This document shows, one piece after another, positions 6,301 to 55,728 of a stretch of 64,000 nt of DNA (the stretch's first letter is position 1; each line of letters begins with the position of its first letter). The stretch spans positions 186,001-250,000 of the forward strand of contig JAAEAF010000236.1 in assembly GCA_011037195.1 (NCBI GenBank), written 5' to 3'. A program made the position numbers and the translations under genes. The notes beneath the pieces were generated by a model that did no database searches, had not been told where the DNA came from, and saw nothing but the letters and a program-made list of their open reading frames with translations. Source of the stretch: Triatoma infestans. Taxonomy: Eukaryota > Arthropoda > Insecta > Hemiptera > Reduviidae.

Positions 6301-6420
6301 GCATGAATATTGAGGGGGGGTGCGATACAACCTTCTGTTGCTTGTATTGTTAGATAGGATGTGAAATTTCCCTGAAGAAGTAGCCAGTTCACTTCCCCTA
6401 GGGAGGGTATTAAGTGTCCG

Positions 6421-6536
6421 ATATTTTCGTGGCAGCCTGCTTCTTTCCGTGCTCATCAAAAAGAAGGAAAGAAGCAGGCCATCACGGAAAAAATGCTCTA
6501 ATGGTTTCCAGCTCTGCCGACCCAACCACAACAACG
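6421..6536. mobile_element. Degenerate foldback (Penelope-like) element, ribozyme deleted
   Basis: The outer parts of the foldback family are present. The left arm has 'cgtggcagcctgcttc'; the right arm has 'gaagcaggccatcacggaaa' followed by the one-sided tail 'ggtttccagctctgccga' and 'cccaaccacaacaa'. The hammerhead-like core found in the other copies is missing between the arms, so this looks like an internally deleted old insertion. No target duplication could be defined. Confidence 0.6.
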
Positions 6537-6539
6537 AGG

Positions 6540-7595
6540 GTATTTAATGTTATAGTTTGCAAAATATCGATTTAAATCTTCAATTATCCTAAAACCTGAA
6601 AACTTAATTTTTTGTCAACATGAAATGAATGATACAATATTACGCACTACGGAAACAATTGGGAATAAATTTTGTTATTTACAAGGTACTTAAACAAACA
6701 TCTTAACAATTTCCGAACTTAATGTTTGTAGATCTTCTCAGCTTTGGTTTTTGGCCAAAAAGCTTCTGGTTGGATTAGTAAGTGTGTAGATAGCTGTTAT
6801 CTACTCTTGAGAAAAGGGTACAGCAGGCTGGAGATTAGTAAGCCCAACTGTCTATAAGAGAGTGAGGGGGAGATAATATGAAGTTTTGTCTTTGTTCAAA
6901 CAAGATTTGTCACCCCTCCCGGTAGAGAGACCGTCGCCACTTGCACTCTACCTTCTCTGCTCGTTCATTGCTTGACTTTAATATTGAACGCTGATGTTTA
7001 CTTGCTGAGATTACTAAGTTCTGCCTCTGCTCTTACTTCGTTCGCTCGCACATTTCTCTCTCGTACACAGCCAGAATCTCTTTCTTAACTTTACAACACA
7101 TCTCCAATGATACAAGTTAAGGTGAATTTTCATTGGAAGTGCTCCGGCTTGCAGACACAAGTAATAATCAACACCTTTTTAGAAACTTGTTAAATTATTT
7201 ACTTATTGAAGTTTTCTTTATCAACTGCTACATTTGCATAAAACGTTTCTTTTGTTTTCTTATGCTTAATCATCATTATTTATCCTTTTATCTTGTGTAA
7301 CAATTTTTTTTAATCCAGTAAACTAAGCCTGGTTTCATTTCATCACTTGCTGCGTAGTTTACGTATATAAACTTTCATTTTGAAGCGCTTCTTTTGAAAA
7401 ACTGTACTCAGATTTCCACATGGCGTTGCAGATTTATTGAAGATATACCATAAGTACTGATACAAAAGTTCAATGAAGGATTATAAAGATTATATTGTAT
7501 ATACCGTTATCTTGTGAGTTGCACTTTGTACCTTATAGTAATGGTTTAAGGGCTAGTCATTTTTGAATTTTTTACTCTTTTCATTAATATAGATT
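6540..7595. other. No gene or element recognised
   Basis: Mixed-composition non-coding DNA. I see no coding exon, RNA gene or repeat that I can name. Confidence 0.4.
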
Positions 7596-16345: not shown

Positions 16346-16402
16346 AAAAATTACTTGTACTATCAGAGACAATTTCCGTGGTAGCCTGCTTCATTTTGTG
16401 GT

Positions 16403-16440
16403 CATCAACCGGTTTCGCGCGTTCGCCCATCTTTAGGATG
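16403..16440 (-). ncRNA. Hammerhead-like motif, inactive-looking (16.4 kb, left arm)
   Basis: Same 38-nt layout as the intact copies, but the core CTGAAGA reads CTAAAGA, stem II has a mismatch (GGGC against GCGC) and the cleavage triplet reads GTT. The core G change would be expected to abolish cleavage. Confidence 0.5.
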
Positions 16441-16544
16441 CGTTTGTTAGACAGTATGATAACACAGACTTGCACAGAGCAAATTCAGTATATAAATTGA
16501 ATTTGCTCTGTTGAAGTCTGTGTTATCACACTGTCTGACAAACG

Positions 16545-16582
16545 CATCCTGAAGATGGGCGAACGCCCGAAACCGGGCGATG
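16545..16582 (+). ncRNA. Hammerhead-like motif, inactive-looking (16.5 kb, right arm)
   Basis: CATC, CTGAAGA, GGGC-GAAC-GCCC and GAAA are intact, but the GGTC before the predicted cleavage point reads GGGC. This removes the U of the NUH triplet. Confidence 0.5.
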
Positions 16583-16974
16583 ACCACAAAATGAAGCAGG
16601 CTGCCACGGAAAATGTCTCTGATGCTTTCCAGCACTGCGGAACCAACCACCACAACAACATTATCCATACTAGAAACTTTCAAGTCACGGTGGTTTTGGC
16701 TTTTTATCTATTTCCCCCTACAAATATTCAACAGCATTCATTCATTTCTTTTCTGCTTTTAGTGTTTTCCTCCACAGGAAAATAGTATTATTTTTTGACA
16801 GTAATTTCCAACAGCTTTTCAGTGCATCGTAAGCTGGCTTAAAATATCAGACAGCCGCTGCTGTATGCCGGATGCTTTCATTTTAAATAACGTGACTATA
16901 TCTCAAAAAGATTGTGGTAAAGCATAAAAGTAACCATATTCTAAGCAAAAACCTTATCGCAAACGCAGAAGATA

Positions 16975-22616: not shown

Positions 22617-22628
22617 GATTGTATTTTC
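22617..22628. repeat. 12-bp target-site duplication of the foldback element, left
   Basis: GATTGTATTTTC here is repeated exactly at 28716-28727, on the far side of the foldback element. Confidence 0.85.
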
Positions 22629-22669
22629 ATCAGAGACATTTTCCGTGGAAGCCTGCTTCATTTTGTGGT

Positions 22670-22707
22670 CATCGACCGGTTTCGGGCGTTCGCCCATCTT
22701 CAGGATG
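22670..22707 (-). ncRNA. Hammerhead ribozyme-like motif (22.7 kb)
   Basis: On the minus strand: CATC, CTGAAGA, one extra T, GGGC-GAAC-GCCC, GAAA, CCGGTC, GATG. CATC and GATG would form stem I, the GGGC/GCCC hairpin stem II, and ACCGGT a minimal, self-complementary stem III. Cleavage would fall after GTC. The T between CTGAAGA and stem II departs from the standard core. Confidence 0.6.
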
Positions 22708-22751
22708 CGCTTTTCAGACAGTGTGCCAACACAGACTCGTACAGAGACTTA

Positions 22752-22762
22752 GTTTCACACTA
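22752..22762. repeat. 11-bp target-site duplication of the LINE, 3' side
   Basis: GTTTCACACTA, matched exactly at 28505-28515. It belongs to the palindromic centre of the foldback element. Confidence 0.8.
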
Positions 22763-22932
22763 GATAAGATAGCGATTCTACCGGGGGAATGGCTACTCAG
22801 CCTACGCCACCGCGACACCCCAAGGATCTATTGTGGCACCCCCCTAGTTGGAGACCCTCCCCCTATCCTGTCCTTAACCGAACTGTGGAATTGGGGGGGG
22901 GGCTCCCAGGTGGTCAATCAGAGCACCCGCCA

Positions 22933-24060
22933 TCAGAGCACCCTCTCGAGTCCTGCTTGCCTTAGAAGACTTAATAGGTCCGAGAGAGGGCCCTGGCTGA
23001 GGCTTGTTGGCACCAGCTTCTCTTTACCAAAGAGGCGGTACCTTAGCCAGACCAGCCCCTCGCACTGACATACCACATGCAGTGCCGTCTCCTCTTCTTC
23101 CTGACAAAACCTGCACAGGCTATCCGTTGCCAGGCCCATGCGATGCATGTGCTTGTTTAATCTACAATGGCCAGTGAGAATGCCAACTGCTATCCTTATG
23201 GCCACCCGGCCTAGTTGGAGTAATTCTGCAGTTAGCTTGGGCGAGTAGCTATAGATAAACTTTTTCGCCTGTCTCTGGCCTGGAGTTTTGACCCACCATT
23301 CCCTTGATCGGTCCTGCATCCATAGCTTAATGGATGCACTCCTGAGGCATCTTGAGACACCGCAGAACGGCTCCGGCCCGATAAGCGCTCTCATTGAACC
23401 CTCCCGGGCCAGGCGGTCCGCCGCCTCATTGCCTCTGTGACCCGAGTGCCCAGGTACCCAAACCAGGAAGACCTTATTATGGCTACTAATTTCCCTTAGT
23501 GCACCTAGGCAGTCCCACACCAGCCTTGAGCTGATCTCCCACGAGTCAATTGCCCGCAGAGCAGCCTGGCTATCCGAATAAATGACGACTCTGGAGTTAT
23601 GCACTCCCCGTCTTCTTATTTCGGCGGCGCAGATAATAATCGCGACTAGCTCCGCCTGAAAGACCGTAGCTAGCCTTCCCAGGCTCACCGAGATATTACA
23701 TCTCGGGTGAGCCCCGTACACGCCGGCTCCCACTCCGTCGCCCATCTTGGACCCGTCCGTGTACCACATAGATTCGCCTGTAATTGGCGGCCCATTCTTC
23801 CATGCCCCTCTGTCTAATATCAAGACTTTGAAGGGTTTTTGGAAGTCATACCTAGGAGTCATCATATCCGTAGGCAGGCCCAAAATCGGGTCCGCCTCCA
23901 GCTCCTCCCATAGGTCTTGATGCTTCCCAGTGTGCCTGGGATAAATGGGTGCTTGTCCCTGTTGTAGTCGTGCCACAACTGCTCTTGCAACGCCTTGGAC
24001 GTAGATGTGGAGTGGTGGAAGGTTTAACAGGACCTCCAAGGCCGCAGTGGGGTAGTCATC
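22933..24060 (-). CDS. LINE ORF2 segment 3: RNase H and zinc-finger C-terminus
   Basis: This frame supplies the end of ORF2. The RNase H domain carries the four acidic positions: D in 'WYTDGSKMG' (near 23750), E in 'FQAELVAI', D in 'IYSDSQAALRAI', and D in 'GNEAADRLARE', after 'WVPGHSGHRG'. It is followed by 'KLTAELLQLGRVAIRIAVG' and a cysteine-histidine cluster 'CRFCQEEEETALHVVCQC' (CX2CX8HX3C), typical for the C-terminus of I-superfamily ORF2. The frame is open as far up as 24225, but sequence above about 24060 is out of phase with the real protein. RNase H would remove RNA from the RNA:DNA hybrid during second-strand synthesis. It is separated from segment 2 by a frameshift, so the copy is not autonomous unless the frameshifts are assembly errors. 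Confidence 0.85.
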   Translation of the reverse strand, partial: DDYPTAALEVLLNLPPLHIYVQGVARAVVARLQQGQAPIYPRHTGKHQDLWEELEADPILGLPTDMMTPRYDFQKPFKVLILDRGAWKNGPPITGESMWYTDGSKMGDGVGAGVYGAHPRCNISVSLGRLATVFQAELVAIIICAAEIRRRGVHNSRVVIYSDSQAALRAIDSWEISSRLVWDCLGALREISSHNKVFLVWVPGHSGHRGNEAADRLAREGSMRALIGPEPFCGVSRCLRSASIKLWMQDRSREWWVKTPGQRQAKKFIYSYSPKLTAELLQLGRVAIRIAVGILTGHCRLNKHMHRMGLATDSLCRFCQEEEETALHVVCQCEGLVWLRYRLFGKEKLVPTSLSQGPLSDLLSLLRQAGLERVL

Positions 24061-24500
24061 ATGGCACCCGTCGTACTCAAACAGGCCAGCCTTTGAATAC
24101 TTCCGAGCGCTCCCGGCCCCCCCATCTGCAAGGTCTTTGTCCACCACGCCACCGCCCCGTGGGTTACCATCGGTCTCACGACACAGGTATAAATCCACAG
24201 AGCCATCTTCGGACTTAATCCCCAACTTTTACCGCATAGCCTCCTGCACCTACCCATGGCGATTTTGGCTTTGTGTGCGGTGATATTAATATGGGAATTC
24301 CATGTCAGCCTTCGGTCAAAAGTGACCCCCAAATATTTGGCTTCCATGGCAAAGGGGATCGCGACCCCTCCGAGCATTGGCTGTTGTAAGCCTTGTAAAT
24401 TTCTCTTCCTTGTAAAAGGAACCACTTGAGTTTTGTGGGGATTGATGGAGAGACCCCCCGCTCTACACCATTTGTTCACAATATTGAGCGCCCCTGAGTG
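24050..24500 (-). CDS. LINE ORF2 segment 2: RT thumb and connection
   Basis: The frame reads 'ALNIVNKWCRAGGLSINPHK', then 'KYLGVTFDRRLTWNSHI' and 'WIYTCVVRPMVTHGAVAWW'. This is the usual stretch after the RT catalytic box in I/R1/jockey-group LINEs (the LGV.LD..L.W..H motif). The phase changes at both ends: near 24495 in a CAGGGGCGC stretch relative to segment 1, and near 24050-24060 at a short C run relative to segment 3. The two breaks lie in short homopolymers, where either true mutation or a consensus error is possible. Confidence 0.8.
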
Positions 24501-26551
24501 CGCTCCGAGACGGTTACCGCGAACCGCCCCCTCACCACGATCGCCAGATCGTCCGCGAACCCTAGGCAATGAAAGCCTTCCGCGGTTAATTTGGTCAGGA
24601 TGTCATCGGCTAACAACGTCCACAGCAATGGCGACAAAACGCCTCCCTGCGGACAGCCTCTACTCACCCTGGCCACAAGAGATGAATTGTCGATGGTGGC
24701 TATATTAGTCCTTCCCAAAAGACTAGTCCTTATCCACTGACTAATTGTAGGGGGCGTGCCCCTTCTTGTCAGTGCACCAACAAGAGACTCTGAGGACACG
24801 TTATTAAAAGCGCCCTCTATATCCAAAAAGGTGACTACCGCAATTTCCTTGTCGTCAAGCGACTTCTGGAGTAGCCTATTTAGGTCGTCCAGAGCCAAAT
24901 CTACGGACTTCCCTGCCTGATAGGCATATTGGCGATTATTGAGAGGATTAATCCTCAAGATCTCGTCCCTTATAAACCTGTCAACCATCCTCTCCATCAC
25001 CTTCAACAGAAAGGAGGACAGGCTTATTGGCCTAAACGACTTTGGCGTTTGATCTACCGATCTCCCTACTTTCGGGAGGAACACGACCTTCACCTGTTGC
25101 CATTCTATCGGTATGAATCTCCAGGCCAAACAGCCTCTAAAGATCCTACATAGGTGTGGTGTCAACACCTCCACCGCCTTCTGCAGGAAGACGGGGTAAA
25201 TTCCATCCAGGCCTGGTGCTTTATAGGGCTTGAATCTTCCAATCGCCCATCTTAGCCTATTCGGCTGTATGACGTGATTCGCGATTTTCCAATCCGCCCG
25301 ACCAGGCCTTCTCAGCCCCTCAACCTCTGAAGGGGCCTCTCCATAAGAGGACCCTGGGAAATGTGTGCTCATGAGCAGCTCCAGCGACTCCTCTATCGAG
25401 TTAGTGTAGGTTCCGTCATCTTTCCTCAGGAACCCTACCCTGTCCGCAGTACCTTCTCTTGCTAAGATTCTGTGGATTCTTGCGCACTCCGAAGTGTCTG
25501 CTACGTCCTCACAGAATCTTCGCCAAGCTTTACGCTTGGCCTTCCTTATTTCGACATTATACTGCATCAGTACCCTTCTATACGATGCCCAGTCTTGGTT
25601 GATTTTGGCTTTGTTAAACAGCCTCCTCACCTCTCTCCTCCTTCTCTCGAGGTGATCATTCCACCAGACCGTCTTCGACCTATTAGGCCTTTCCTTCTCC
25701 GGACAGTTTTCCCTGTAGGCGTCCAAAATCGCCTCGGTTACTTGTGCCACTGCCCGTCCCAGACTTCCTATTGTCCGTACATCCACTTTAAGGTCACCGA
25801 GAGACTCACTGAGACTCCCTACAAATCCCTCCCAGTGGGTCTCCCTCGGGCTTCGAAGCCTGGTAATGACCAATGGTGGAGTGCATATATCAAACCTTAT
25901 GTGCCTATGGTCCGAGCACGATGGCTCACTTGATACATGCCAGTGAGCAATTTTACTCAACATACAGCGCGAGGCTAGCGTCACATCCAGCACCTCCCTC
26001 CTAGCTGCAGTCACGAAAGTTGGTTCCAAGCCTACATTGGCTACATGCAACCCTTCACCAGTAATGAATTCATAAAGGTACTTACCCCTTTGGTTGATAT
26101 CGGTGCTCCCCCAGGCAGTGTTGTGCGCGTTGGCGTCGCATCCCAGCACCAGCTGCAAGTTCCCACCTCTGCAGTAGTCCATTACTCTTCTCAGTAGACA
26201 GAGGGGGAAATCCTCATCACCGGGGAAGTACGCAGAGCTAATAACCAGCCTTTCCACTCCCTCTTCGGTGTTGATAGTTAGGAGAGCTGTAACAAAATCG
26301 GCGGAGCACAGCTCCGGTATTAATCCACAGCTCACCTTGTTACTATGCACTATACACGCTCGGGGTCTACTTACAGACTTGTTGTACAGCACCTTCCCAA
26401 ATTTCGGATGCAGTCCTCGGACGATCCCCCCATGGCACCACGGCTCCTGCAGTAGGGCTACATGTAGCCCCTCCCTGTCGAACCTCCTACTAAGCACGGC
26501 CGAAGCGGCCCTTGCATGGTGGAGGTTCGCCTGCACCATCTTGATCGCCAT
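24497..26551 (-). CDS. LINE ORF2 segment 1: AP-like endonuclease and reverse transcriptase
   Basis: I place the start at ATG 26551 ('MAIKMVQANLHHARAAS'), one nucleotide after the ORF1 stop, because the endonuclease begins there (QANLHHARAAS; then 'VALLQEPW', 'VLGCDANAHNTAWGS', and 'PSCSDHRHIRF', matching the E, D.N and SDH catalytic positions of the exonuclease-endonuclease-phosphatase fold). The reverse transcriptase follows: 'KAPGLDGIYPVFLQ', 'FRPISLSSFLLKVMERMVDR', 'FLDIEGAFNNVS', 'RGCPQGGVLSPLLW' and the catalytic 'FADDL' at 24545-24559. The protein nicks the target and primes cDNA synthesis from the nick. The frame breaks shortly after FADDL at about 24495. The open frame continues upstream of 26551 only because it overlaps ORF1. 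Confidence 0.88.
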
Positions 26552-26552
26552 G

Positions 26553-27986
26553 TTAGGTCTCCGAGGGGGGCGGAACGTCGGCCCCGGGTCCCAAGGGTCG
26601 CCCCCCGGCTTCCGCAACCTCCGGCAACCGCTCCTGGCCTTGAGACCTGTGGAGCAAGCCGGCATCGCTTCCGCCAGGAGACGCACCCACCGGGACCCCC
26701 GCCTTGACGTCCGCCCCCTCCTCTATCCGCCCCTCTCCTACGGGTAGTACGGCCAGGGCAGCCTGCAACGCCGCCATCTCTCCTTCCAGGCCCCCCTGAC
26801 CCCCCTTTGGCAAGTCCACCCTCACCAAGCTCTCGGCCTGTGGCTGATCTCCTTCCACTTCCATCGCCTTGGCCTCCTCCGAGCTTTTGCTTTTCGGAAG
26901 CTTGTGACGAAAAGTCACTCGCCCCCAACCAAAATAGGGGGACATGTTCAGCCTTTTGAGCTCCGCCAATGACCCCCTGTCCATTGAGAATGTCCAGAGA
27001 CACCCACCCTCAACGGGTAAGCATCCCCAGACCCTCCACATTTCGGTTTTCAGCCCCTGGTTGCTCACCTCTAAACGATGGAGCACCCTCTCAGCCTCAA
27101 CCTGCTTGCCCCCCTCGTTGGGGATGAAGACCTTACAGGTCTCTGGGCCCGGTATGTCCCTCCCCTCGAGTGTCTGGAGGCTTGCACCTTCCCAGGGTTT
27201 AAGCTTTGGGATAATCTCCCTCAGCCACCCCAGACTATCGTCCCCTACGCAGGTAATGACAAGGAACCCTGGTTTATGGGCACATTTGGCCAACCTGACC
27301 TGCGGCCCGCCTCTTGGGATCTTGTCGTATTCCCCCAAAATGGCATTTTGGATGGCCTGTAGTTCATCCATGCCTAACTGGTAATCGGGGAAGCCCTTCT
27401 GCACCACGGCAATTTTCGCCGATGAGGAAGCCTCACTGTAGGATTTCTCCACAGTCTTGGCTTTAACCCTCTTGGGCGGCCGCTGCTGCTGTGGGGATTC
27501 CCCCTCCGACCTTGGCCTCTTAGTCGCCTGTGTCGTACGTTCTACCCATTGAAGGTAGTTTTCCTTTATTAACTGGCGTTTGGCCTGAAGATACTCCTGG
27601 CCCGCCTCAACGCGAGCTTTGAGCTCCTTCCTGGAGAGCCCTGACAGCCTGGCGGCTTGAACGTCCTTGTCTGTCATATTCTCGATCGCTTCTAGCGACC
27701 CCGCTTTAAAGTTTCCGGCCTTTGCCTTGGCCTTCTGGACAGAGGAGCCCCCAGGCCCGCAGGCCCGGCCTTTGGCAGTCCCTGGCATAACGCCAGTTTC
27801 CACCGTGGCCATAGTGGCTGCGGGACCGGGAACCCCACCATCTGTGCCTTGGGCAGTCACCGTGAATCTACTAACTGGTGCTTTGGCTGTGCTGGTTGTG
27901 GGGTTTCTCCCCTCCCCATGGCCTGTCGCACCAGTTCTCGATGGCATCCATGCCTGAAGTTTTAATTTTTTCTTCTTCTTACCCAT
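26553..27986 (-). CDS. LINE ORF1 protein, DUF4780-like
   Basis: An intact 477-residue frame from ATG 27986 to TAA 26553. The N-terminus is strongly basic (MGKKKKKLKLQ), as in nucleic-acid-binding ORF1 proteins. A low-complexity linker follows, then a helical segment around 115-160 ('AARLSGLSRKELKARVEAGQ'). A globular region at about 195-370 ('YQLGMDELQAIQNAILGEYD' to 'GWGRVTFRHKLP') resembles the DUF4780 domain found in ORF1 of Loa-like LINEs. No CCHC knuckles are visible, unlike R1/jockey ORF1. The C-terminus is acidic then Gly/Pro-rich. It is presumably the RNA-packaging protein of the LINE ribonucleoprotein. The stop is one base before the ORF2 ATG (TAA-C-ATG), suggesting coupled termination and reinitiation. 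The DUF assignment is from memory of the motif pattern and needs a profile search. Confidence 0.75.
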   Translation of the reverse strand: MGKKKKKLKLQAWMPSRTGATGHGEGRNPTTSTAKAPVSRFTVTAQGTDGGVPGPAATMATVETGVMPGTAKGRACGPGGSSVQKAKAKAGNFKAGSLEAIENMTDKDVQAARLSGLSRKELKARVEAGQEYLQAKRQLIKENYLQWVERTTQATKRPRSEGESPQQQRPPKRVKAKTVEKSYSEASSSAKIAVVQKGFPDYQLGMDELQAIQNAILGEYDKIPRGGPQVRLAKCAHKPGFLVITCVGDDSLGWLREIIPKLKPWEGASLQTLEGRDIPGPETCKVFIPNEGGKQVEAERVLHRLEVSNQGLKTEMWRVWGCLPVEGGCLWTFSMDRGSLAELKRLNMSPYFGWGRVTFRHKLPKSKSSEEAKAMEVEGDQPQAESLVRVDLPKGGQGGLEGEMAALQAALAVLPVGEGRIEEGADVKAGVPVGASPGGSDAGLLHRSQGQERLPEVAEAGGRPLGPGADVPPPSET

Positions 27987-28504
27987 GTGATTCCCACGAG
28001 TAGCTAGGGATAGGGTCGTCCACCCGACCAGAGCCCCGCATTAGCCGGGCAAGGCTAAATACTCCGGGGTTTCGCCCGGTACCCCGGAGGCTCCGTTATC
28101 GACACAGTACCCCTGTGCCATCCATCCCTCGGCACGGAACGCGTAACACCTTAGATTGGGCCCTACTAACAAGTCTGTACTATGTGCGTGTACGTGTTGT
28201 TGTGTGTGTGTTCGTAATTGTGTATGTTCCCCGTGTAAGATGTTGGGCTGGGATGTTCGCAGGGTCGCCCTTACCTGAGGGGGCAGCTAATCCACCCCCC
28301 ATCCCACGATAGAGGAAGTGAGGGATCGGGTTGGACGGGAAAGCAGGATGGGGTACACTAAAAAGGTGGCCCGCGGTGGGTTGCCGCCAGGCCCGCCATT
28401 GCCCTGTTGGCCGCACTCAAAGAGCGCGTTGCCCGGTCCTCACGGCGTGGACGTAGGGTTGGCTAGCCCCTCAATTCAAGATCGAGGAGACCTTTGAGGA
28501 CCTC
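27987..28504 (-). other. 5' UTR of the LINE
   Basis: GC-rich leader between the 11-bp target duplication and ORF1. In other non-LTR elements this region carries an internal promoter; no specific motif was identified here. Confidence 0.5.
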
Positions 28505-28515
28505 GTTTCACACTA
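28505..28515. repeat. 11-bp target-site duplication of the LINE, 5' side
   Basis: GTTTCACACTA, identical to 22752-22762. Confidence 0.8.
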
Positions 28516-28600
28516 ACTCCTTAGTTACTTTCACAGATACTTAGTTAGTGTGAAACTAAGTATCTGTACGAGTCTGTGTTGGCACACTGTCTGAAAAGCG

Positions 28601-28638
28601 CATCCTGAAGATGGGCGAACGCCCGAAACCGGTCGATG
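28601..28638 (+). ncRNA. Hammerhead ribozyme-like motif (28.6 kb)
   Basis: CATC (28601-28604) pairs with GATG (28635-28638) as stem I. CTGAAGA is 28605-28611. Stem II is GGGC/GCCC (28613-28624) with loop GAAC. GAAA is 28625-28628. ACCGGT (28628-28633) forms a minimal stem III. The predicted cleavage point is after C28634 (GTC). One unpaired T at 28612 departs from the textbook core. Confidence 0.62.
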
Positions 28639-28715
28639 ACCACAAAAGGAAGCAGGCTTCCACGGAAAATGTCTCTGATGCTTTCCAGCTCTGCGGAACC
28701 AACCACCACAACAAA

Positions 28716-28727
28716 GATTGTATTTTC
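28716..28727. repeat. 12-bp target-site duplication of the foldback element, right
   Basis: GATTGTATTTTC, identical to 22617-22628. Confidence 0.85.
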
Positions 28728-33480: not shown

Positions 33481-33492
33481 AATGAAAATTAA
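33481..33492. repeat. 12-bp TSD of foldback element, left
   Basis: AATGAAAATTAA, repeated exactly at 33770-33781. Confidence 0.88.
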
Positions 33493-33568
33493 TTGTTGTG
33501 GTGGTTGGTTCCGCAGAGCTGGAAAGCATCAGAGACATTTTCCGCGGTAGCCTGCTTCATTTTGTGGT

Positions 33569-33606
33569 CATCGACCGGTTTCGGGCGTTCGCCCATCTTC
33601 AGGATG
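33569..33606 (-). ncRNA. Hammerhead ribozyme-like motif (33.6 kb, left arm)
   Basis: Identical to the 22670 and 28601 copies over all 38 positions: CATC, CTGAAGA, T, GGGC-GAAC-GCCC, GAAA, CCGGTC, GATG on the minus strand. Confidence 0.6.
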
Positions 33607-33693
33607 CGTTTTTCAGACAGTGTGACAACACAGACTTGCACAGAGCAAACTTAGTTTTCACACTCACTGTGTTGTCACACTGTCTGGAAAACG

Positions 33694-33731
33694 CATCCTG
33701 AAGATGGGCGAACGCCCGAAACCGGTCAATG
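33694..33731 (+). ncRNA. Hammerhead ribozyme-like motif, stem I variant (33.7 kb, right arm)
   Basis: The core is intact, but the base after the predicted cleavage point is A rather than G (AATG for GATG). This weakens stem I by one pair. Confidence 0.5.
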
Positions 33732-33769
33732 ACCACAAAATGAAGCAGGCTACTACGGAGAATGTCTCC

Positions 33770-33781
33770 AATGAAAATTAA
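33770..33781. repeat. 12-bp TSD of foldback element, right
   Basis: AATGAAAATTAA, identical to 33481-33492. Confidence 0.88.
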
Positions 33782-39905: not shown

Positions 39906-39921
39906 AAAATCATTAGACTCC

Positions 39922-40056
39922 ATCAGAGACATTTTTCGAGGTAGCCTGCTTCATTTTGTGGTCATCGACCGGTTTCGGGCGTTCGCCCATCTTCAGGATG
40001 CGTTTTTCAGACAGTGTGACAACACAGACTTGCACAGAGCAAATTTAGTTTACACA
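39922..40056 (-). mobile_element. Single arm of the foldback (Penelope-like) family
   Basis: One arm only, from 'atcagagacatttttcgagg' to 'gcaaatttagtttacacact', with no inverted partner within the next several kb. A solitary pseudo-LTR or truncated insertion fits. No target duplication was found. Confidence 0.7.
39963..40000 (-). ncRNA. Hammerhead ribozyme-like motif (40.0 kb)
   Basis: All 38 positions are identical to the intact copies at 22670 and 33569 on the minus strand, despite changes elsewhere in the arm. Confidence 0.6.
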
Positions 40057-40266
40057 CTGACTGGTGTTTTTAACCCTTGAGATTTTCTAGGACTCTCTGG
40101 AGTTCAGTTTAACGAGAAAACACTGCCAGAGATCATGGGCAGTGAGATGGCAACGGGCATCAATGACTGACTATATGGACACGTGGTTCAAAAAAAAAAA
40201 GTCTCTTCTTGTTGGGGAATAGATTTATTCTACGGATTATATTAAAGTCATTATAACTCCATAAAC

Positions 40267-41637: not shown

Positions 41638-43362
41638 TGAATCAACCCCTGGTGTATCAGCTCTATTATACGCTGATGACCTCATTATCTGGGCTACAAG
41701 CAGCAATGTAGAGGCACTAGAATCCTGTTTGAATGAAGCTCTAAGTAGGCTTAAAATTTGGTCAGACGCCAACGAAATGTTGGTTAACCCAGGAAAAACT
41801 GAGTTTCAGCTTTTTACCCTCTCGACAAAAGCATACAACATTGGCCTGTTTTACAATGATGACGAAATAACTCGCACGGAGAAAGCCACTTTTGGAGTAA
41901 GGCTGGATACAAAGCTGAACTGGAACAAGCATATTGACAAACAAATACAGCAAGCAACAAAGCGGATAGGGCTTTTGAAGAGGCTAGCGGGAACAAGATG
42001 GGGCGCGACCCAAGACGTCCTCTCCCTGGCGTACAAGTCATACGTGCGACCAGTAATGGAATACGGAGGTGAAGTTACTATCACGGCGTCGCAAGCCTCA
42101 CTCAGAAAGCTGAATATTATCCAGAATAACGCTTTACGCCTAATAACTGGAGGGTCAAAATCAACTCCGATTCCCGCCATGGAGATGCAGGCGGAAGTAG
42201 AGCCCCTTCATATGCGAAGAGAAGCGTTGGCAGTGATCATGTATGAGAGACTAAAAAGAACAAACAATACGTACTGGAAGATATACCATCCAGCAACTAG
42301 TAGGCTGAAAACTCAAACTAACTTTGTGTCGAAGGTTGAAGACATATTAGGGAAGAGGGGCTTAACTGGTCTTAGCAGAGAAGAATTCCCCTTACCCTCA
42401 TACCATCACTCGGTAACGTCTGTAACCTCCAGCCTGGATCTGATACAACCTGTTTCCAAGGAGCATACTTTACCCGAGGAGCTTAAAGCAATCACGATGG
42501 AGACCATTTCTCATCGATACCCAGAGGAAGTATGGACACATGTGTATACGGATGGCTCGGCGGAAGGCGCCGTTCAAAATGCTGGAGCAGGTGTTTATTG
42601 CAAGCACTTCCAGTTGTCTGCACCCGCGGGGCTGAGAGGGACTAACCACGGAGGGGAAATAAGGGCCATAGAGATGGCCCTTGAGCAACTGCAAGATAGA
42701 AATGATAAAAGAGCAGTTCTCTTGGTCGACTCCCAGGCAGCTATTTTATCGGTGACGGGTCGGAATATAACCGACTGTTCAGCGGTGGTTCGGTGTCGCT
42801 CGCTTGTGGCAAACCTACAGAATCGTGGCACCGAGGTTGTTTTTCAGTGGGTCCCAGGGCATTGCGGAATCTATGGCAATGAACAAGCGGATAGGCTTGC
42901 CAAGCAAGGGACAAAGGAAGTACAACCAGATAACCCCCTTCCCTTAAGTGACATTAAAAGAATTATTAAGACCTTAGTTCACAGGGACCGGATAAGGGAA
43001 CAAAGAATGGTAGCGGAGGGCAAACATTGGGAAGTCCTCAGGGAGCCGCAAGGAGCGATTCCAGCAGATCTGCCTAGGGCCAGGTTTGTGGCCTGCTTCC
43101 GCCTCCTTACAGGCCACGATTTTCTCCAAAAGCACCTCCACAGGATAGGGGTAGCGCAGAGCCCTGAGTGTACTCTGTGTGAAACAGGAGACGAGATGAC
43201 CTCTAACCACCTAGACTCATGTCCTGCACTAGAGGACCTACGTATATTTTTAACTGACAAAGTGACAAAGACGCCTACATTAGAAGGGCGTGTCTTTATT
43301 GGGCTGCTAGGACGCGTATGGCCGAAGCTGCCGACGTGCCAGCGTAAAAAAAAAAAAAAAAA
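41638..43362 (+). mobile_element. 5'-truncated non-LTR retrotransposon (I/jockey group)
   Basis: It is bounded by an exact 15-bp target duplication and ends in an uninterrupted poly(A) of 18 bases. Only the end of the RT ORF is present, starting just before the catalytic YADD. The open frame, perfect duplication and clean poly(A) make it the youngest-looking LINE insertion in the window. Confidence 0.92.
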
Positions 43363-43387
43363 ATGTTATAAAATTTTATTTATTTAG
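41639..43387 (+). CDS. LINE ORF2 fragment: end of RT, RNase H, zinc motif
   Basis: The open frame starts at the truncation point and has no true start codon. RT motif: 'YADDLIIW' (YADD at 41669-41680), then 'KLNWNKHIDKQI' and 'LAYKSYVRPVMEYGGEV'. RNase H (about 42537-42930): 'VYTDGSAEG' (D), 'NHGGEIRAIEMAL' (E), 'VDSQAAILSV' (D) and 'GHCGIYGNEQADRLAKQG' (last D). The C-terminal C-C-H-C cluster is 'CTLCETGDEMTSNHLDSC'. All four RNase H acidic residues are kept. The frame reads through the poly(A) into the host flank and ends at 43387, adding a lysine run and a few flank residues, so the natural stop is absent or was created by the tail. It cannot be autonomous without the endonuclease and most of the RT. 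Confidence 0.88.
   Translation, partial: ESTPGVSALLYADDLIIWATSSNVEALESCLNEALSRLKIWSDANEMLVNPGKTEFQLFTLSTKAYNIGLFYNDDEITRTEKATFGVRLDTKLNWNKHIDKQIQQATKRIGLLKRLAGTRWGATQDVLSLAYKSYVRPVMEYGGEVTITASQASLRKLNIIQNNALRLITGGSKSTPIPAMEMQAEVEPLHMRREALAVIMYERLKRTNNTYWKIYHPATSRLKTQTNFVSKVEDILGKRGLTGLSREEFPLPSYHHSVTSVTSSLDLIQPVSKEHTLPEELKAITMETISHRYPEEVWTHVYTDGSAEGAVQNAGAGVYCKHFQLSAPAGLRGTNHGGEIRAIEMALEQLQDRNDKRAVLLVDSQAAILSVTGRNITDCSAVVRCRSLVANLQNRGTEVVFQWVPGHCGIYGNEQADRLAKQGTKEVQPDNPLPLSDIKRIIKTLVHRDRIREQRMVAEGKHWEVLREPQGAIPADLPRARFVACFRLLTGHDFLQKHLHRIGVAQSPECTLCETGDEMTSNHLDSCPALEDLRIFLTDKVTKTPTLEGRVFIGLLGRVWPKLPTCQRKKKKKKCYKILFI
43363..43377. repeat. 15-bp target-site duplication, 3' side of LINE
   Basis: ATGTTATAAAATTTT, identical to 41623-41637. 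Confidence 0.92.
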
Positions 43388-48589: not shown

Positions 48590-48830
48590 TTCAATTCTGC
48601 AGGACCCCATAAATTCAATTTGAAGTAGAACTTTCTGGGATTTTTCGTTTTTGCGACATTTTGTCACACGCATTCACACATACAGAACGTTTGCTAAAAA
48701 CATTTTATCTTATTCATGGGGTCTCTACATAATTTCCGGTGAAAACTGAAAATTTATCATGCTCACAATATTTCCTCTTACTAGGAGTGAGAGAAAGTGA
48801 AAAAGCAGCATACTATGACGTCATAAATTT
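48590..48830 (-). repeat. Family A, inverted partial copy
   Basis: 'Actttctgggatttttcgtt' (reverse of the 'ctcaaaaacgaaa' block), 'cattcacacatacagaacgt', 'tttgctaaaaa', 'atttccggtgaaaact', then the palindrome at 48771-48799 and 'tatgacgtcataaat'. The order parallels 7860-8190. Confidence 0.5.
48771..48799. repeat. Palindromic AGTAAGAGAAAGT motif, copy 4
   Basis: TTTCcTCTTACT, AGG, AGTGAGAGAAAGTG. One extra C lies in the left arm. Confidence 0.5.
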
Positions 48831-49254
48831 AAACATATTTTACAGCATTGCGGACGAAATTATTCTACGCTTTTGATATAATTAAGTCATTAATTCCTTC
48901 AGGCAAAGAAAATTTTGTTCGCCTGAAGTTCTGTAAAATTACCTGTAGAATCGTAGCGTTGACATCTTGAAAGTTTTTTTTTATATAACCTGTTTCTTTA
49001 TGGCATTGACTACATGATCGTCAAAGTTGTTTTGATAAACAACGTGAGAGAGTCGACTAACCAAAATAGTCTACTAAGAACGGTTAGTCCAAGGTCCAGA
49101 GGATATGATGGCATAAACGATTTATAGAAAGCAAACAAAAAACCTACCAGAACATATTTTTACAAACTTTTACTTTCTGGTAACATAGAGGGCTATTGCG
49201 AACGTGTATATTTTTTGAAAATGAGTTTTCACAGAAAGTACATATTTTCACGTT

Positions 49255-51149: not shown

Positions 51150-54100
51150 ATGGCGCCCAAACGTGCAGCACGAGCTCTAGAACGACCATCGACGGAGCGA
51201 CAGCCCAGCCCCGAATTAGGAGACATAAGCATGCAGCTCACCCCAGAGATGTTGCAGCAGCTGATACGAGGCATCACTCAAGACAGGCAGACCCAGCAGT
51301 CTGGCCTAATGATTGGGTGTACCGCACGCTACGGAGGAAAACCAGGAGAGGACCTGGATGTCTTCATCTCCGCAGCAGAGACGTACAAGGAAGCAGCCCG
51401 AGTGAGTGACAACCACGCATTAGCCGCACTGCCCATGCTACTCCCAGACGTTGCAGGAACTTGGTGGCTCGGAGAGAAGGAAACCACCACAACATGGCCT
51501 GACGCCATACAGCAGCTGAGGCGAACTTTTGGACCTAGGAAGTCCAACGATCAGCTGTACCGAGAGTTTTTCAACACGCCGCAGGACAACAAGACCAGCA
51601 CGGACCAGTTTGTCTGCAGCAAGCGAGCAATACTTGCTCAAATCACCCCGGCTCTGGACATCCATGTTCAGCTGGACATGACCTATGCGGTACTCCATCC
51701 CAGGTTAAGGACCCGCATCAGGAGGGAAACTGTCGATACCTTCTGGGCACTCGTGCAAGAGGCCAGACGGATCGAGCAGTATGAGGACCCAGCACCAGCA
51801 GCAAAGAAGCCAAACGAGAGGACAGGTGGCACTACCAGGTGTGACTACTGTGGCATCAGAGGCCACTATCAGAAGGACTGCAGGAAGGCAAAGGCAGCCC
51901 ACCCGCACAAGCAGCAGCCTACAGCACAGGCGGCCTACAGTTGTTTTGGTTGCAACAGACCGGGAGTATACAGGAGCAACTGCCCGGACTGCAACCAAAC
52001 GAAGACGCAGCAAGAAAGAACAGGCTCTTTCTGTGCTGCCCACATACAGATCCGCACCCGGCAGAGGCCAGCACTCAGCTTTGCCGTATGGAACCTAGAG
52101 GGCACTGGCTTTGTAGACACAGGAGCCAAGACCAGTATAGGCAGCCACCAGCTGCAGACCCTGCTAGAAGAACGAGGACATCCCCTCACCCTAACAACGG
52201 CTACAGTGACGCTAGCAGACGGAGAAGAAACAACGCAGCAGGTTGCACAGACGCAACTGCCAGTCAAACTGAAGGGAAGGACAATCCCGACCAGTTTCAC
52301 ATTCTTCCCGGGAGCCCGGAACACCCAGACGTTGCTCGGAATAGACTTCATTGAGGGCGCTGGACTTATATTGGATTTTGGAGAACACAGGTGGAGGTTT
52401 CATGACAACCCCACACTCTACCCATTCACCAGAAAGGACAAGCCAGCACCACCACAGTTACAGATGGACACTGTGACTATGACACCGCAGCCAGCACTAC
52501 TCAGCCCACTGCCGCTGACTCCATTGAAAGGAGACACACGAGTTTATAGAGAAACTCAGAACACGGTTGTGAAGGTACCACAACCCACATCAGAAAGGAT
52601 CAGCCCACCGCCGCTGACTCCAGGAGCAGAAGACACACGAGTTTATGGAACAACTCAGGAAGCGATTGTGCAGACGCCACATTTCAGGACAACCATGGTC
52701 AGCCCGCTACCACCCACACCAACAAGAACGCTAGGAGAGATGGAAGCTACCGAAGAGGCCATACTCGGAGGCTATGGACCCTCACCACCGGTACAACAGG
52801 ACACCACCAGGGGTAGGTGGATAATACACCGTTGCGAGTCCACCGAAAGGACTCACCACACGCCCACCAGGCATAGCCATCTAGACTTCCATAGGGTATG
52901 GGCGGATGAAACCCTATGGCCATCGGAGGAGCAACTACAGCTTTTCACCATAGACGTGGAGCTTAGAAAAGACGAAGGCACCCGGCTCACCCGAGCACAA
53001 CAGGAGCAGGCTAATGAGATACTTGCTGCTCACGAGGACGTGTTTGGAATTCCTACAGAGCCTACGCCACACGCAGAACACAGGATAGACACCGGAGAGG
53101 CATCACCTATAGCAGCACCGCCATACCGGCTATCACCTAGCAGACGTCACATCTTGGAACAGGAGATTTCCCAGATGCTGGACGGACGGATCATCGCGCC
53201 CTGCGACAGTGAATGGACCTCACCTGTCGTCATGGTGCCCAAGAAGGACAACACGTACAGGCTATGCATTGACTACAGGAAGTTGAATGCAGTCACTAAA
53301 GCAGATCATTATCCACTGCCACGGATAGATGACATCTTGCACACTGCTAAAGGGACGCAGTATATGAGCACGCTAGACCTCAGAGCAGGGTACTGGCAGA
53401 TCAAGGTAAAACTAGAGGATCGAGATAAAACCTGTTTCATCACACCTTTTGGAACCTACCGGTTTAACAGAATGCCATTCGGCTTACGCAACGCACCAGC
53501 CACCTTTCAGAGACTTATGGACAAGTTTCGAACTGGACTCAGCCACATTACACTGCTAGTCTACCTAGACGACCTAATAGTGCTCTCACCAGGCTACGAG
53601 GAGCATCTATCAGACCTACAAGAGGTATTTCAGCATCTAGAGAAGTACAAGCTGAAGGCCAACCGGCCCAAATGCCACTTCTGCTGCGAACGAATCAAGT
53701 ACCTAGGCCACGTGATTACGCCTAGAGGATTCACCCCCGATCCAGAGAAGATCGAAGCTATACTCAAGAGACCCGCACCGAGGAACGTAAAGGAACTTAA
53801 GAGTTTCCTTCAGACCTGCTCGTGGTACCGACGGTTCATCCCAGACTTTGCCAAGATCGCTCGACCGATGACCTTGCTCACCAGGAAAGCCACCACATGG
53901 ACATGGACCACCGACCAAGCAGATGGATTTGACCAGCTAAAGAAACTACTGACGTCAGCACCCATCCTCCAGCCAGCCGATGAGACTCGCCCCTTCACTA
54001 TCAAAACCGACGCTAGTGCTTATGCTATTGGAGCAGTCTTAGTCCAGGGGGAGAAAGAAGAAGAACATCCCGTGGAGTACGCCAGCCGCCTGCTTACAGC

Positions 54101-54197
54101 GCCTGAGAGAAACTACACGACGACCGAACGAGAAGCACTCGCCTTAGTATGGGCAGTCTTCAAGTTCAGAGGATATATCGAGGCCACCCCACGTTGA
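51150..54197 (+). CDS. Gypsy Gag-Pol polyprotein, first part (Gag, protease, RT, RNase H start)
   Basis: One open frame of 1015 codons from ATG 51150. Gag capsid-like region: about residues 50-220. Zinc knuckles: 'CDYCGIRGHYQKDC' at residues 231-244 is a complete CX2CX4HX4C; a second, 'CFGCNRPGVYRSNC' near 265-278, has Y where H is expected. Protease: 'FVDTGAKTSIG' with DTGA at about 323-326. RT: 'MVPKKDNTYRLCIDYRKLN', 'MSTLDLRAGYWQIKV', 'MPFGLRNAPATFQRLMD' and catalytic 'YLDD' at about 805-808. RNase H begins with 'TIKTDASAYAIGAVL' and includes 'TTTEREALALVWAV'. Translation leaves the protein phase near 54180, shortly before the third RNase H acidic residue; the last few codons are out-of-frame residues. 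Gag and Pol need no ribosomal frameshift here, unlike many Gypsy elements. Confidence 0.92.
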   Translation: MAPKRAARALERPSTERQPSPELGDISMQLTPEMLQQLIRGITQDRQTQQSGLMIGCTARYGGKPGEDLDVFISAAETYKEAARVSDNHALAALPMLLPDVAGTWWLGEKETTTTWPDAIQQLRRTFGPRKSNDQLYREFFNTPQDNKTSTDQFVCSKRAILAQITPALDIHVQLDMTYAVLHPRLRTRIRRETVDTFWALVQEARRIEQYEDPAPAAKKPNERTGGTTRCDYCGIRGHYQKDCRKAKAAHPHKQQPTAQAAYSCFGCNRPGVYRSNCPDCNQTKTQQERTGSFCAAHIQIRTRQRPALSFAVWNLEGTGFVDTGAKTSIGSHQLQTLLEERGHPLTLTTATVTLADGEETTQQVAQTQLPVKLKGRTIPTSFTFFPGARNTQTLLGIDFIEGAGLILDFGEHRWRFHDNPTLYPFTRKDKPAPPQLQMDTVTMTPQPALLSPLPLTPLKGDTRVYRETQNTVVKVPQPTSERISPPPLTPGAEDTRVYGTTQEAIVQTPHFRTTMVSPLPPTPTRTLGEMEATEEAILGGYGPSPPVQQDTTRGRWIIHRCESTERTHHTPTRHSHLDFHRVWADETLWPSEEQLQLFTIDVELRKDEGTRLTRAQQEQANEILAAHEDVFGIPTEPTPHAEHRIDTGEASPIAAPPYRLSPSRRHILEQEISQMLDGRIIAPCDSEWTSPVVMVPKKDNTYRLCIDYRKLNAVTKADHYPLPRIDDILHTAKGTQYMSTLDLRAGYWQIKVKLEDRDKTCFITPFGTYRFNRMPFGLRNAPATFQRLMDKFRTGLSHITLLVYLDDLIVLSPGYEEHLSDLQEVFQHLEKYKLKANRPKCHFCCERIKYLGHVITPRGFTPDPEKIEAILKRPAPRNVKELKSFLQTCSWYRRFIPDFAKIARPMTLLTRKATTWTWTTDQADGFDQLKKLLTSAPILQPADETRPFTIKTDASAYAIGAVLVQGEKEEEHPVEYASRLLTAPERNYTTTEREALALVWAVFKFRGYIEATPR
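51151..51168 (+). promoter_or_regulatory. Primer-binding site overlapping the gag start
   Basis: TGGCGCCCAAACGTGCAG begins 7 nt after the 5' LTR. The opening TGGCGCCC is the complement expected of a tRNA 3' end ending in CCA (lysine- or serine-type), which would prime minus-strand cDNA. The ATG of gag (51150) provides its first bases, so the site is also translated. Confidence 0.65.
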
Positions 54198-55345
54198 TAG
54201 TCACAGACCACCAACCACTACAGTGGCTGATGACCCTGAAATCACCTACAGGCCGACTCGCCCGTTGGGCCCTGCAATTACAACCCTACGTATTTCAGAT
54301 CAAATACACACCCGGAAGGAGCAACGCAGTGGCCGACACGTTATCAAGGCCCCCTGAAGAAGAGAATTACGCAGTCTGTACCCTCACTATAGACATGCCG
54401 AGGAGAAGCGCTACGGAGATCCGGGAAGAACAGTCCAAGGATCCCGAGCTGAAGAAAATACTAGACGCCTTCACCGATCCAGAGCAAGATGGTGAAGCAG
54501 CTAGATGGTCCGCCAGAGGTTATCTAATAGCGAATGGTTGCCTTTACAGATACGCCACCGACGAGGAGGTGGACAACGCACAGCTAGCTGTTCCAGTACA
54601 CGAACGAGTAGCTATACTAAAGGAGTACCACGATGCGCCCACAGCAGGACATAACGGTATTCACAAGACCTACCAGAGGATAATTCAGCATTATGACTGG
54701 CCAGGAATGCGACACAGCATTGAAGAGTATATACGAGCTTGCACGACATGCCAGAGGTACAAGGCATCCAACTTGAAGCCCGCAGGACTACTCAGGACCC
54801 CACCAATGAACCAGCGATTCGAAGTCATCGCCGTAGACTTATTCGGTCCCTTACCCGAATCAGTCGAAAGGTACAAGTGGATATTAGTCATCGAGGACAC
54901 GGCATCCCGATGGATGGAGCTTTTTCCCTTACAAGAAGCTACGGCACAGCGCTGCGGAGAACTACTACTAAACGAGTTCTTCTTACGATACGGAATACCA
55001 AGGAAGATGATCAGCGACAATGGAACGCAGTTCATCAGTCACGTGATGCAGTACATCACCTTCTGTTTAGGCATTACACAAGCCTTTACACCAGTCTACC
55101 ACCCGGCAGCGAACCCCGTGGAGAGACGAAACCGAGAACTGAAGACGCAGTTAGCTATCCTCGTAGGAGAAGACCACAGCGATTGGCCAAGGAGACCGCC
55201 CGCTATCAGATTCGCTCTCAACACCGCTGAATGCCAGGCTACCAAGATGACGCCTGCATACTTAACGTTTGGAAGAGAATTACGGACCCCCGCAGAGATC
55301 CAACATGACTTAAGAGAAGTCATCTCTTCAGAGAATTCATCGCCG
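54180..55345 (+). CDS. Gypsy Pol, second part: RNase H end and integrase
   Basis: Phase-shifted continuation. RNase H end: 'LIVTDHQPLQWLM' and 'SNAVADTLSR'. Integrase zinc domain: two H ('HDAPTAGHNGIHKTYQRI' region) and 'CTTCQRYK'. Integrase catalytic core: D in 'VIAVDLFGPLP', D in 'MISDNGTQFISHVM', and E in 'NPVERRNRELK', the DDE triad with its usual spacing. 'FALNTAECQATKMTPAYLTF' follows, as in other Gypsy integrases. The frame stays open to 55603, but beyond about 55340 it no longer matches the protein. Confidence 0.88.
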
Positions 55346-55728
55346 AAATCACGCCAGCCCTCTCGCGCATGGCAGACACCTACTATAGAGCCCGAGACAA
55401 CCCCGAAACGGCTCAGGACCGGCAGAAGAAATACGCAGACCAACGAGCACGTCCAGGACCCCAGTACGCGCCCGGAGACCGCGTGTGGATCACTACCCAC
55501 ACACAGAGCAGTAAGACGAAGGGACGAACAGCCAAGTTCGCTCCACGAAGGGACGGACCCTACGTCATTCTACACGCACAGGGACCCGTCAGCTATGAAG
55601 TAGCAGCCGAAGACAACCCGACGATACCACTGGGCAAATACCACGTGTCAATCCTGACGCCCTGCACCGCAGACGCCCAGAAGAAGCCAATCCGAAGGTT
55701 AAGGAAGAGAGGCCGACCACGCCATTGA
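55340..55728 (+). CDS. Gypsy Pol, third part: integrase C-terminal GPY/F module
   Basis: Third phase of the same polyprotein, ending at 55728. 'PGDRVWITTHTQSS' and 'GPYVILHAQGPVSYEV' form the GPY/F module that ends Gypsy integrases, followed by 'KYHVSILTPC' and a basic tail. No chromodomain follows. An internal ATG at 55369 exists, but it would not be the natural start. Confidence 0.82.

Follow-up and report, generated by a model that had tools for sequence, protein, structure and literature searches.

Repeated hammerhead-type cores

The stretch of 64,000 nucleotides analysed here (the window) contains a short block that recurs in seven arms and raises the question whether this block is a ribozyme, which kind of element carries it and how its copies came to lie in foldbacks. 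The initial annotation had located the seven arms and read in them the parts of a hammerhead. A 24-nt core (CTGAAGATGGGCGAACGCCCGAAA) was recovered at all seven of these places, in six perfectly and in one with two mismatches; the largest number in 100 shuffles was 0. In copy d (28601-28638, + strand) the parts follow each other as CATC, CTGAAGA, T, GGGC-GAAC-GCCC, GAAA, CCGG, TC and GATG. CATC and GATG pair as stem I, GGGC and GCCC as stem II with a GAAC loop, and CCGG is palindromic. CUGANGA, GAAA and the UH cleavage site of a type I hammerhead are thus present, and cleavage is predicted after C28634, the same position as proposed before. The complete 38-nt layout is found in four of the seven copies (22670, 28601, 33569 and 39963), which are identical over these 38 nt, as had been claimed. 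The remaining three are altered: the copy at 16403 reads CTAAAGA and GTT and has a mismatch in stem II, the copy at 16545 has GGC in place of the GTC cleavage triplet, and the copy at 33694 has one stem I mismatch (CAATG). The extra T before stem II, listed previously as the one departure from the hammerhead order, does exist, but is explained as the T of an ATG that overlaps the motif, and it occurs in a second family of the element as well.

A descriptor (stem I of 4 bp, CTGANGA, one optional base, stem II, GAAA, a closable stem III and TH), drafted post hoc with the motif already known, matches four of the seven window copies versus none in a set of 100 simulated windows, each of 64 kb and with the dinucleotide composition kept. 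The order of parts is real. Since the repeats share descent, their mutual likeness carries no independent weight, in contrast to the layout and to the comparison between families. Pattern scans for relatives hit 18 loci, in viral contigs (2 and 2) and genome contigs (14); inspection by eye of each match with its 12 flanking bases led to their rejection as chance.

The host genome (941,445,613 bases in 13,959 contigs) contains at least 34,042 cores (17,070 + 16,972) at up to two mismatches, where two arms may belong to one insertion; the control with the reversed pattern gave 0. For the analyses below a sample of 102 records (313,266 bases after removal of duplicates) was used, composed of the window, 81 stretches among the first 100 core matches listed and 20 arbitrary 5-kb stretches. 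Because stretches picked via the core list had to contain the core, they are biased against cut templates; this core-selection bias does not affect partner arms, the window or the 100 kb of arbitrary stretches.

Foldbacks and insertion ends

Six of the seven arms lie in inverted pairs that read outward (inverted repeats 16362-16492/16493-16623, 22628-22768/28540-28680 and 33527-33633/33667-33773), and the arm at 39963 is single, with no partner arm. The first pair consists of arm a (16360-16498, - strand, core 16413-16436), with the altered core described above and tailless, and arm b (16485-16657, + strand, core 16549-16572), with the GGC triplet and tailed. Arm c (22628-22763, - strand, core 22680-22703) and arm d (28541-28714, + strand, core 28605-28628) both have an intact core. 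They form a single foldback interrupted by a LINE (22763-28504, - strand), whose ORFs encode DUF4780, endonuclease-RT and RNase H and which has an 11-bp duplication of its own (GTTTCACACTA, 22752-22762 and 28505-28515, read by eye). Arm d is tailed, by approximately 34 nt (28681-28714) that are missing in its tailless partner c. The target-site duplication of foldback c/d, GATTGTATTTTC, is found at 22617-22628 on the left and 28716-28727 on the right. Arm e (33494-33668, - strand, core 33579-33602) is intact and tailed, arm f (33643-33775, + strand, core 33698-33721) has the stem I mismatch and is tailless, and the e/f foldback is flanked by AATGAAAATTAA (33481-33492 and 33770-33781). The single arm g (39915-40063, - strand, core 39973-39996) is intact and tailless.

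Two further structures were absent from the initial annotation. A truncated foldback of the same family as arms a to g (family 1), from which the motif is absent, occupies 6413-6536 between duplications of GAGGGTATT (6403-6411 and 6536-6544). A degraded head-to-head relic of the second family (family 2) is located at 48776-48855; its right arm matches at E 0.0006 and its left arm was judged only by eye. Other elements of the window are an LTR-type retrotransposon with two overlapping ORFs carrying RT, RNase H and integrase domains (51150-55603, + strand) and, at 41729-43387 (+ strand), an RNase H-encoding ORF that probably represents the 3' portion of a further LINE.

The sample contains 61 head-to-head pairs, ten of which were dropped for a partial or odd outer end. 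In all 51 pairs with complete outer ends (46/46 of family 1 and 5/5 of family 2) one arm carries the tail of approximately 34 nt and the other is tailless, with the tail on the left in 27 and on the right in 24. This final count uses each right arm once and requires both outer ends; in L019 the shorter arm lies half a position below the tail threshold and was scored tailless. Earlier counts gave 22 of 24 one-tailed pairs (the others being one "mid" and one degraded), 26 of 28 (the exceptions being L019 and one wrong pairing) and 55 of 64, the other nine being wrong pairings, partial arms or L019. At diagnostic sites compared in 31 pairs to see if both arms stem from a single RNA, the arms of L042 differ at both and those of a few others at one. 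Target-site duplications (score of 9 or more) accompany 35 of the 51 pairs, versus 30 of 2,550 mismatched flank pairs, and 16 pairs lack a clear one. They measure 12 bp in 19 of the 35, range from 9 to 17 bp and consist of 78.5% A+T, versus 62.1% in the window.

In five pairs (L092, L100, L108, L121 and L122) one arm is reduced to 35-70 nt of the unit's 5' end, and the second end may have been closed in another way.

Inverted arms, small size and very high copy number are also what a MITE-like foldback DNA transposon would display, with the block as a chance transposase binding site within its terminal inverted repeats. The outer ends, however, are not mirror images, given that every complete pair has a single tail; the duplications vary in length; arms are truncated from the 5' side at many middle positions; single arms occur; and two families have a reading frame and RNA stems in common (see below). 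Such a transposon is therefore a very improbable source of the foldbacks.

A presumed Penelope-like reading frame within the motif

The motif contains the start of an ORF. Its ATG (28611 in arm d, + strand) lies inside CTGAAGATG and opens a presumed Penelope-like element (PLE) frame (MGERPKPVDDHKRKQASTENVSDAFQLCGTNHHN...; 28611-28714), which remains open to the AC-rich end of the element, 104 nt from the ATG. The predicted cut lies 24 nt past the ATG. Insertions have two end points, approximately 70 and 104 nt from the ATG, and the longer insertions stop within AACCAACCACCACAACAA.

Family 2 was met in the flanks. In this family, too, the hammerhead overlaps the ORF start, and the beginning of the frame is common to both: family 1 reads MGERPKPVDDHKMKQATTENVSDAFQLCGTNHHN (MGERPKPV...) and one family 2 copy MDENPKPVRKEINMHAMTDKIPDVIQHCGSIH (MDENPKPV...). 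A search with the N-terminus gave no candidate for the full frame with RT and GIY-YIG, the foldbacks holding the first 34 codons only.

Overlap of motif and ORF, an AC-rich internal end, inverted pLTRs and AT-rich target-site duplications are features of PLEs, and all of them were found. Judged from these sequence features, the repeated blocks are almost certainly the start regions of a PLE. The PLE home suggested by the initial annotation is supported by the ATG in the motif, the short conserved frame, the ends that differ in their tail, the AC-rich end, the duplications and the head-to-head order. PLEs with a hammerhead are a kind already known, and the present element is a further member.

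Covariation and folding of the motif

Family 2 is diverged from family 1; stems I and II have changed with compensation and its consensus keeps CUGANGA, GAAA and CCGG. The two families were compared in a hand-chosen alignment of 19 distinct rows (ten of family 1 and ten of family 2, with one identical row merged). The family 2 rows are those ten of the 17 listed matches with a readable core, and the family 1 rows include three older arms picked for CTGATGA. Paired stem cells amount to 87.5% over the 19 rows, versus 24.7-44.1% in slid controls. The number of cells changed on both sides (38) and the covariation score (0.553) were each reached by none of 500 shuffles, and both-side changes affect every one of the four pairs in stem I and two of the four in stem II. 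Two of the five covariation measures are not above shuffles and do not favour the structure: the number of both-side-changed pairs (6, reached in 137 of 500 shuffles) and the number of further pair types (10, reached in 500 of 500). The stem I pair 6-41 is unpaired in seven of the 19 rows. The covariation mainly reflects one split between the two families, with few independent events.

Family 2 copies at L037:6148-6475, L044:2595-2878, L046:428-634 and L067:2705-3475 represent a PLE with its own covarying motif (GGAU/AUCC stem II). This second PLE family is apparently older than family 1.

The initial annotation had named the Rfam hammerhead models as a check, and here its reading found no support: no hammerhead family reached gathering score in the window or in 20 loci, and with the limit relaxed to E 10 none appeared for 28551-28700 or for five loci. 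The sole Rfam match for 28551-28700, Zeta-pan (E 5.2), is under the family cut-off and was rejected, as were 15 matches in the five loci, mostly microRNA families on foldback hairpins and likewise under their cut-offs. Stems I and II form in the bare 38 nt RNA, with a z of only -1.44. A 61 nt RNA gives z -0.68, the RNA of 28571-28713 gives z 0.12 with a fold that is not the hammerhead, and larger stretches give nothing above shuffles. In one molecule the closure of stem III fails, as only CCGG stands between A15.1 and U16.1 and leaves no loop possible. A CCGG stem III requires a second sense copy as partner, and cleavage would accordingly need tandem or paired RNAs. As the arms lie head to head, one foldback transcript contains one sense and one antisense copy and cannot form the stem III dimer alone. 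The predicted cleavage may perhaps proceed via tandem or paired RNAs with the help of protein.

These results bear on a further explanation, in which the block is the end of a PLE but no ribozyme, conserved as coding sequence and with an incidental hairpin. The overlap with the ORF, the missing Rfam hammerhead match, the weak folding in context and the fact that templates were mostly copied uncut (see below) agree with it. Coding alone, however, does not account for the 5' strand of stem I, which lies upstream of the ATG and covaries with the 3' strand in three of the four pairs, nor for the stem II changes (GGC to GAT and CGC to AAT), which alter two amino acids and keep the pairing, nor for the retention of CUGANGA, GAAA and the CCGG palindrome in the consensus of both families. 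We regard conservation as coding sequence alone as unlikely. The hammerhead reading is supported as right in kind, the motif being a putative ribozyme.

Arm starts and the predicted cleavage site

Among 141 arms detected with a longer model, a count restricted to strong matches (cut-off 1e-15) that disfavours short arms, 71 begin at -98 to -92 relative to the predicted cleavage site, 35 further upstream, 27 at -91 to -60 and eight nearer. The shared 5' start approximately 95 nt upstream of the cleavage site is perhaps the transcription start. In some longer copies TATTTAAAA stands upstream of TCAGT, as read by eye. At L029:255-1492 a family 1 palindrome exceeds the usual extent by approximately 450 nt of upstream sequence on either side, and looks as if read-through RNA from the flanking DNA had served as template.

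A head-to-head junction at the predicted cleavage site would read GTGGTCATC, 0-12 nt, GATGACCAC. None of the 141 arms of the longer-model search (cut-off 1e-15) starts within -1 to +1 of this site. In family 1, 149 of 158 matches (E below 0.001, in a core-based sample that favours intact copies) begin upstream of the motif and nine of 158 stop before the cleavage site, so that approximately 140 of 158 span the predicted site uncut. The 5' ends of family 1 downstream of -56 fall at -41, -26, -12, -11, -6, -2, 3, 5, 11 and 13, the end at -2 being the window arm at 6459, which reads TT-GATG. Family 2 (16 matches) has one 5' end at 0, the relic in the window, and one at -2. Three ends within -2 to 0 are a mild excess at best, and no peak is claimed. 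In the truncated foldback at 6413-6536 the left arm (- strand) begins at GATG, the base following the predicted cleavage site, and the right arm begins approximately 11 nt further in. In the relic at 48776-48855 the right arm begins at AGG, with the first base past the predicted cleavage site of family 2. These two copies are old and suggestive of cut templates. The sample contains no genomic sign that cleavage preceded insertion, and cut templates are rare at most in it.

The same starts, together with the order of the arms, bear on the possibility that the repeats are retrozymes, non-autonomous circular-RNA elements with tandem type I hammerheads. Motif type, short unit and huge copy number would suit such an element. 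Metazoan retrozymes are characterised by direct tandem repeats bounded by hammerheads, which were not found here: short tandem repeats of 150-450 bp are described in PMC7229834, whereas the present arms lie head to head. The ATG in the motif and the PLE-type ends likewise speak against a retrozyme, and most arms begin upstream of the predicted cleavage site, not at it. A retrozyme origin is accordingly rated as highly unlikely.

Comparison with known elements

The closest likeness is with PAc of Anolis carolinensis, a Poseidon-type PLE described in PMC11167929. There the ORF starts at stem II of the hammerhead and the cut lies 26 nt past the start codon. Reverse transcription starts 111-118 nt into the ORF, within an AC-rich stem-loop, a 30-40-nt tail lies between two start sites, and both DNA strands are extended (PMC11167929). 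Shared with PAc are thus the hammerhead over the ORF start with a predicted cut 24-26 nt past the ATG, internal AC-rich priming approximately 0.1 kb into the ORF (104 nt here), the tail and AT-rich targets. In PAc, by contrast, tandem repeats occur, whereas the present insertions are mostly short head-to-head pairs or single arms and the protein was not seen; and in vitro the PAc start site is the same for both strands, whereas here one of each is found per complete pair. The ribozyme of PAc cleaves only with its protein, and cleavage is dispensable for insertion in vitro (PMC11167929), with which the mostly uncut family 1 copies agree.

In Penelope of Adineta vaga, according to PMC3846280, inverted pLTRs lie head to head, one of the two bearing a 31-bp tail, a TATA box is located 20 bp from an Inr-like site, and the duplication is 9 bp long. 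Its element Pen2a_Av shares with the present one a pLTR with the first ORF codons, inverted pLTRs, one tail, short duplications and a TATA approximately 20 bp upstream of an Inr-like site; it differs in its low copy number, versus at least 34,042 cores here. The main text of PMC3846280 does not contain the word hammerhead. A strict one-tail rule, as observed in 51 of 51 pairs, is stated nowhere in the literature searched, a set without the primary papers on hammerheads in PLEs. The tail is described as optional on one of the inverted pLTRs (PMC3846280) and as present in only a fraction of copies (PMC11167929).

PLE hammerheads are also described as lacking helix III. The present motif, compared by description, has in common with dimer-type PLE hammerheads the type I order, a reduced stem III and a proposed action as dimer. 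Luense et al. in 2017 and Cervera and de la Pena in 2014 reportedly described minimal type I PLE hammerheads that cleave as dimers.

Proposed mechanism

We consider it highly probable that the arms are 5' fragments of a PLE that arose by internal priming at two sites and head-to-head joining. This account starts from what the DNA shows directly, namely a covarying motif, insertions that stop at two fixed points, an asymmetric tail, duplications, a shared 5' start and the number of copies. Each arm would comprise the pLTR promoter region, a type I hammerhead motif of minimal size and the ORF up to codon 23 or 34, with the ATG inside the motif, and transcription of the element would be driven from the pLTR. 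By analogy with the Anolis and Adineta PLE papers, the PLE protein would cut AT-rich target DNA with a stagger of approximately 12 bp, and reverse transcription would begin at an internal position of the RNA instead of the 3' end, with a choice of two sites approximately 34 nt apart. The cDNAs, primed from both ends of the target, would reach the 5' end of the RNA approximately 200 nt away as a short "strong-stop" product. Head-to-head joining of the two, for which the same papers serve as models, would yield foldbacks of approximately 300 bp with one end tailed and one tailless; that this would be the reason for the single tail per insertion is what we infer. The hammerhead would be carried along because the RNA starts on one side of it and the priming sites lie on the other.

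Priming at both ends fits PAc, because PAc extends both strands. The Adineta authors favour self-priming on an antisense template (PMC3846280). Both routes are compatible with the present data, which do not decide between them. A narrower version, in which two unlike primings, one at the AC-rich tail site and one approximately 34 nt upstream, are coupled by a fixed rule, the cDNAs are joined and the hammerhead normally stays uncut, is advanced tentatively, as somewhat likelier to fail than to hold.

Significance for Penelope-like elements

The mechanism of PLE transposition is called little known in PMC11167929, and the role of PLE hammerheads a mystery in PMC7761336. With more than 34,000 cores, the genome itself documents where insertions end and templates start and if the RNA had been cut beforehand, and its many copies show a very regular insertion pattern of such elements. 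The one-tail rule and the rarity of cut templates can both be checked genome-wide by simple counting. The narrower, coupled version of the mechanism, if true, would mean that PLEs integrate by a fixed rule involving two sites and that the hammerhead lies in the shared template.
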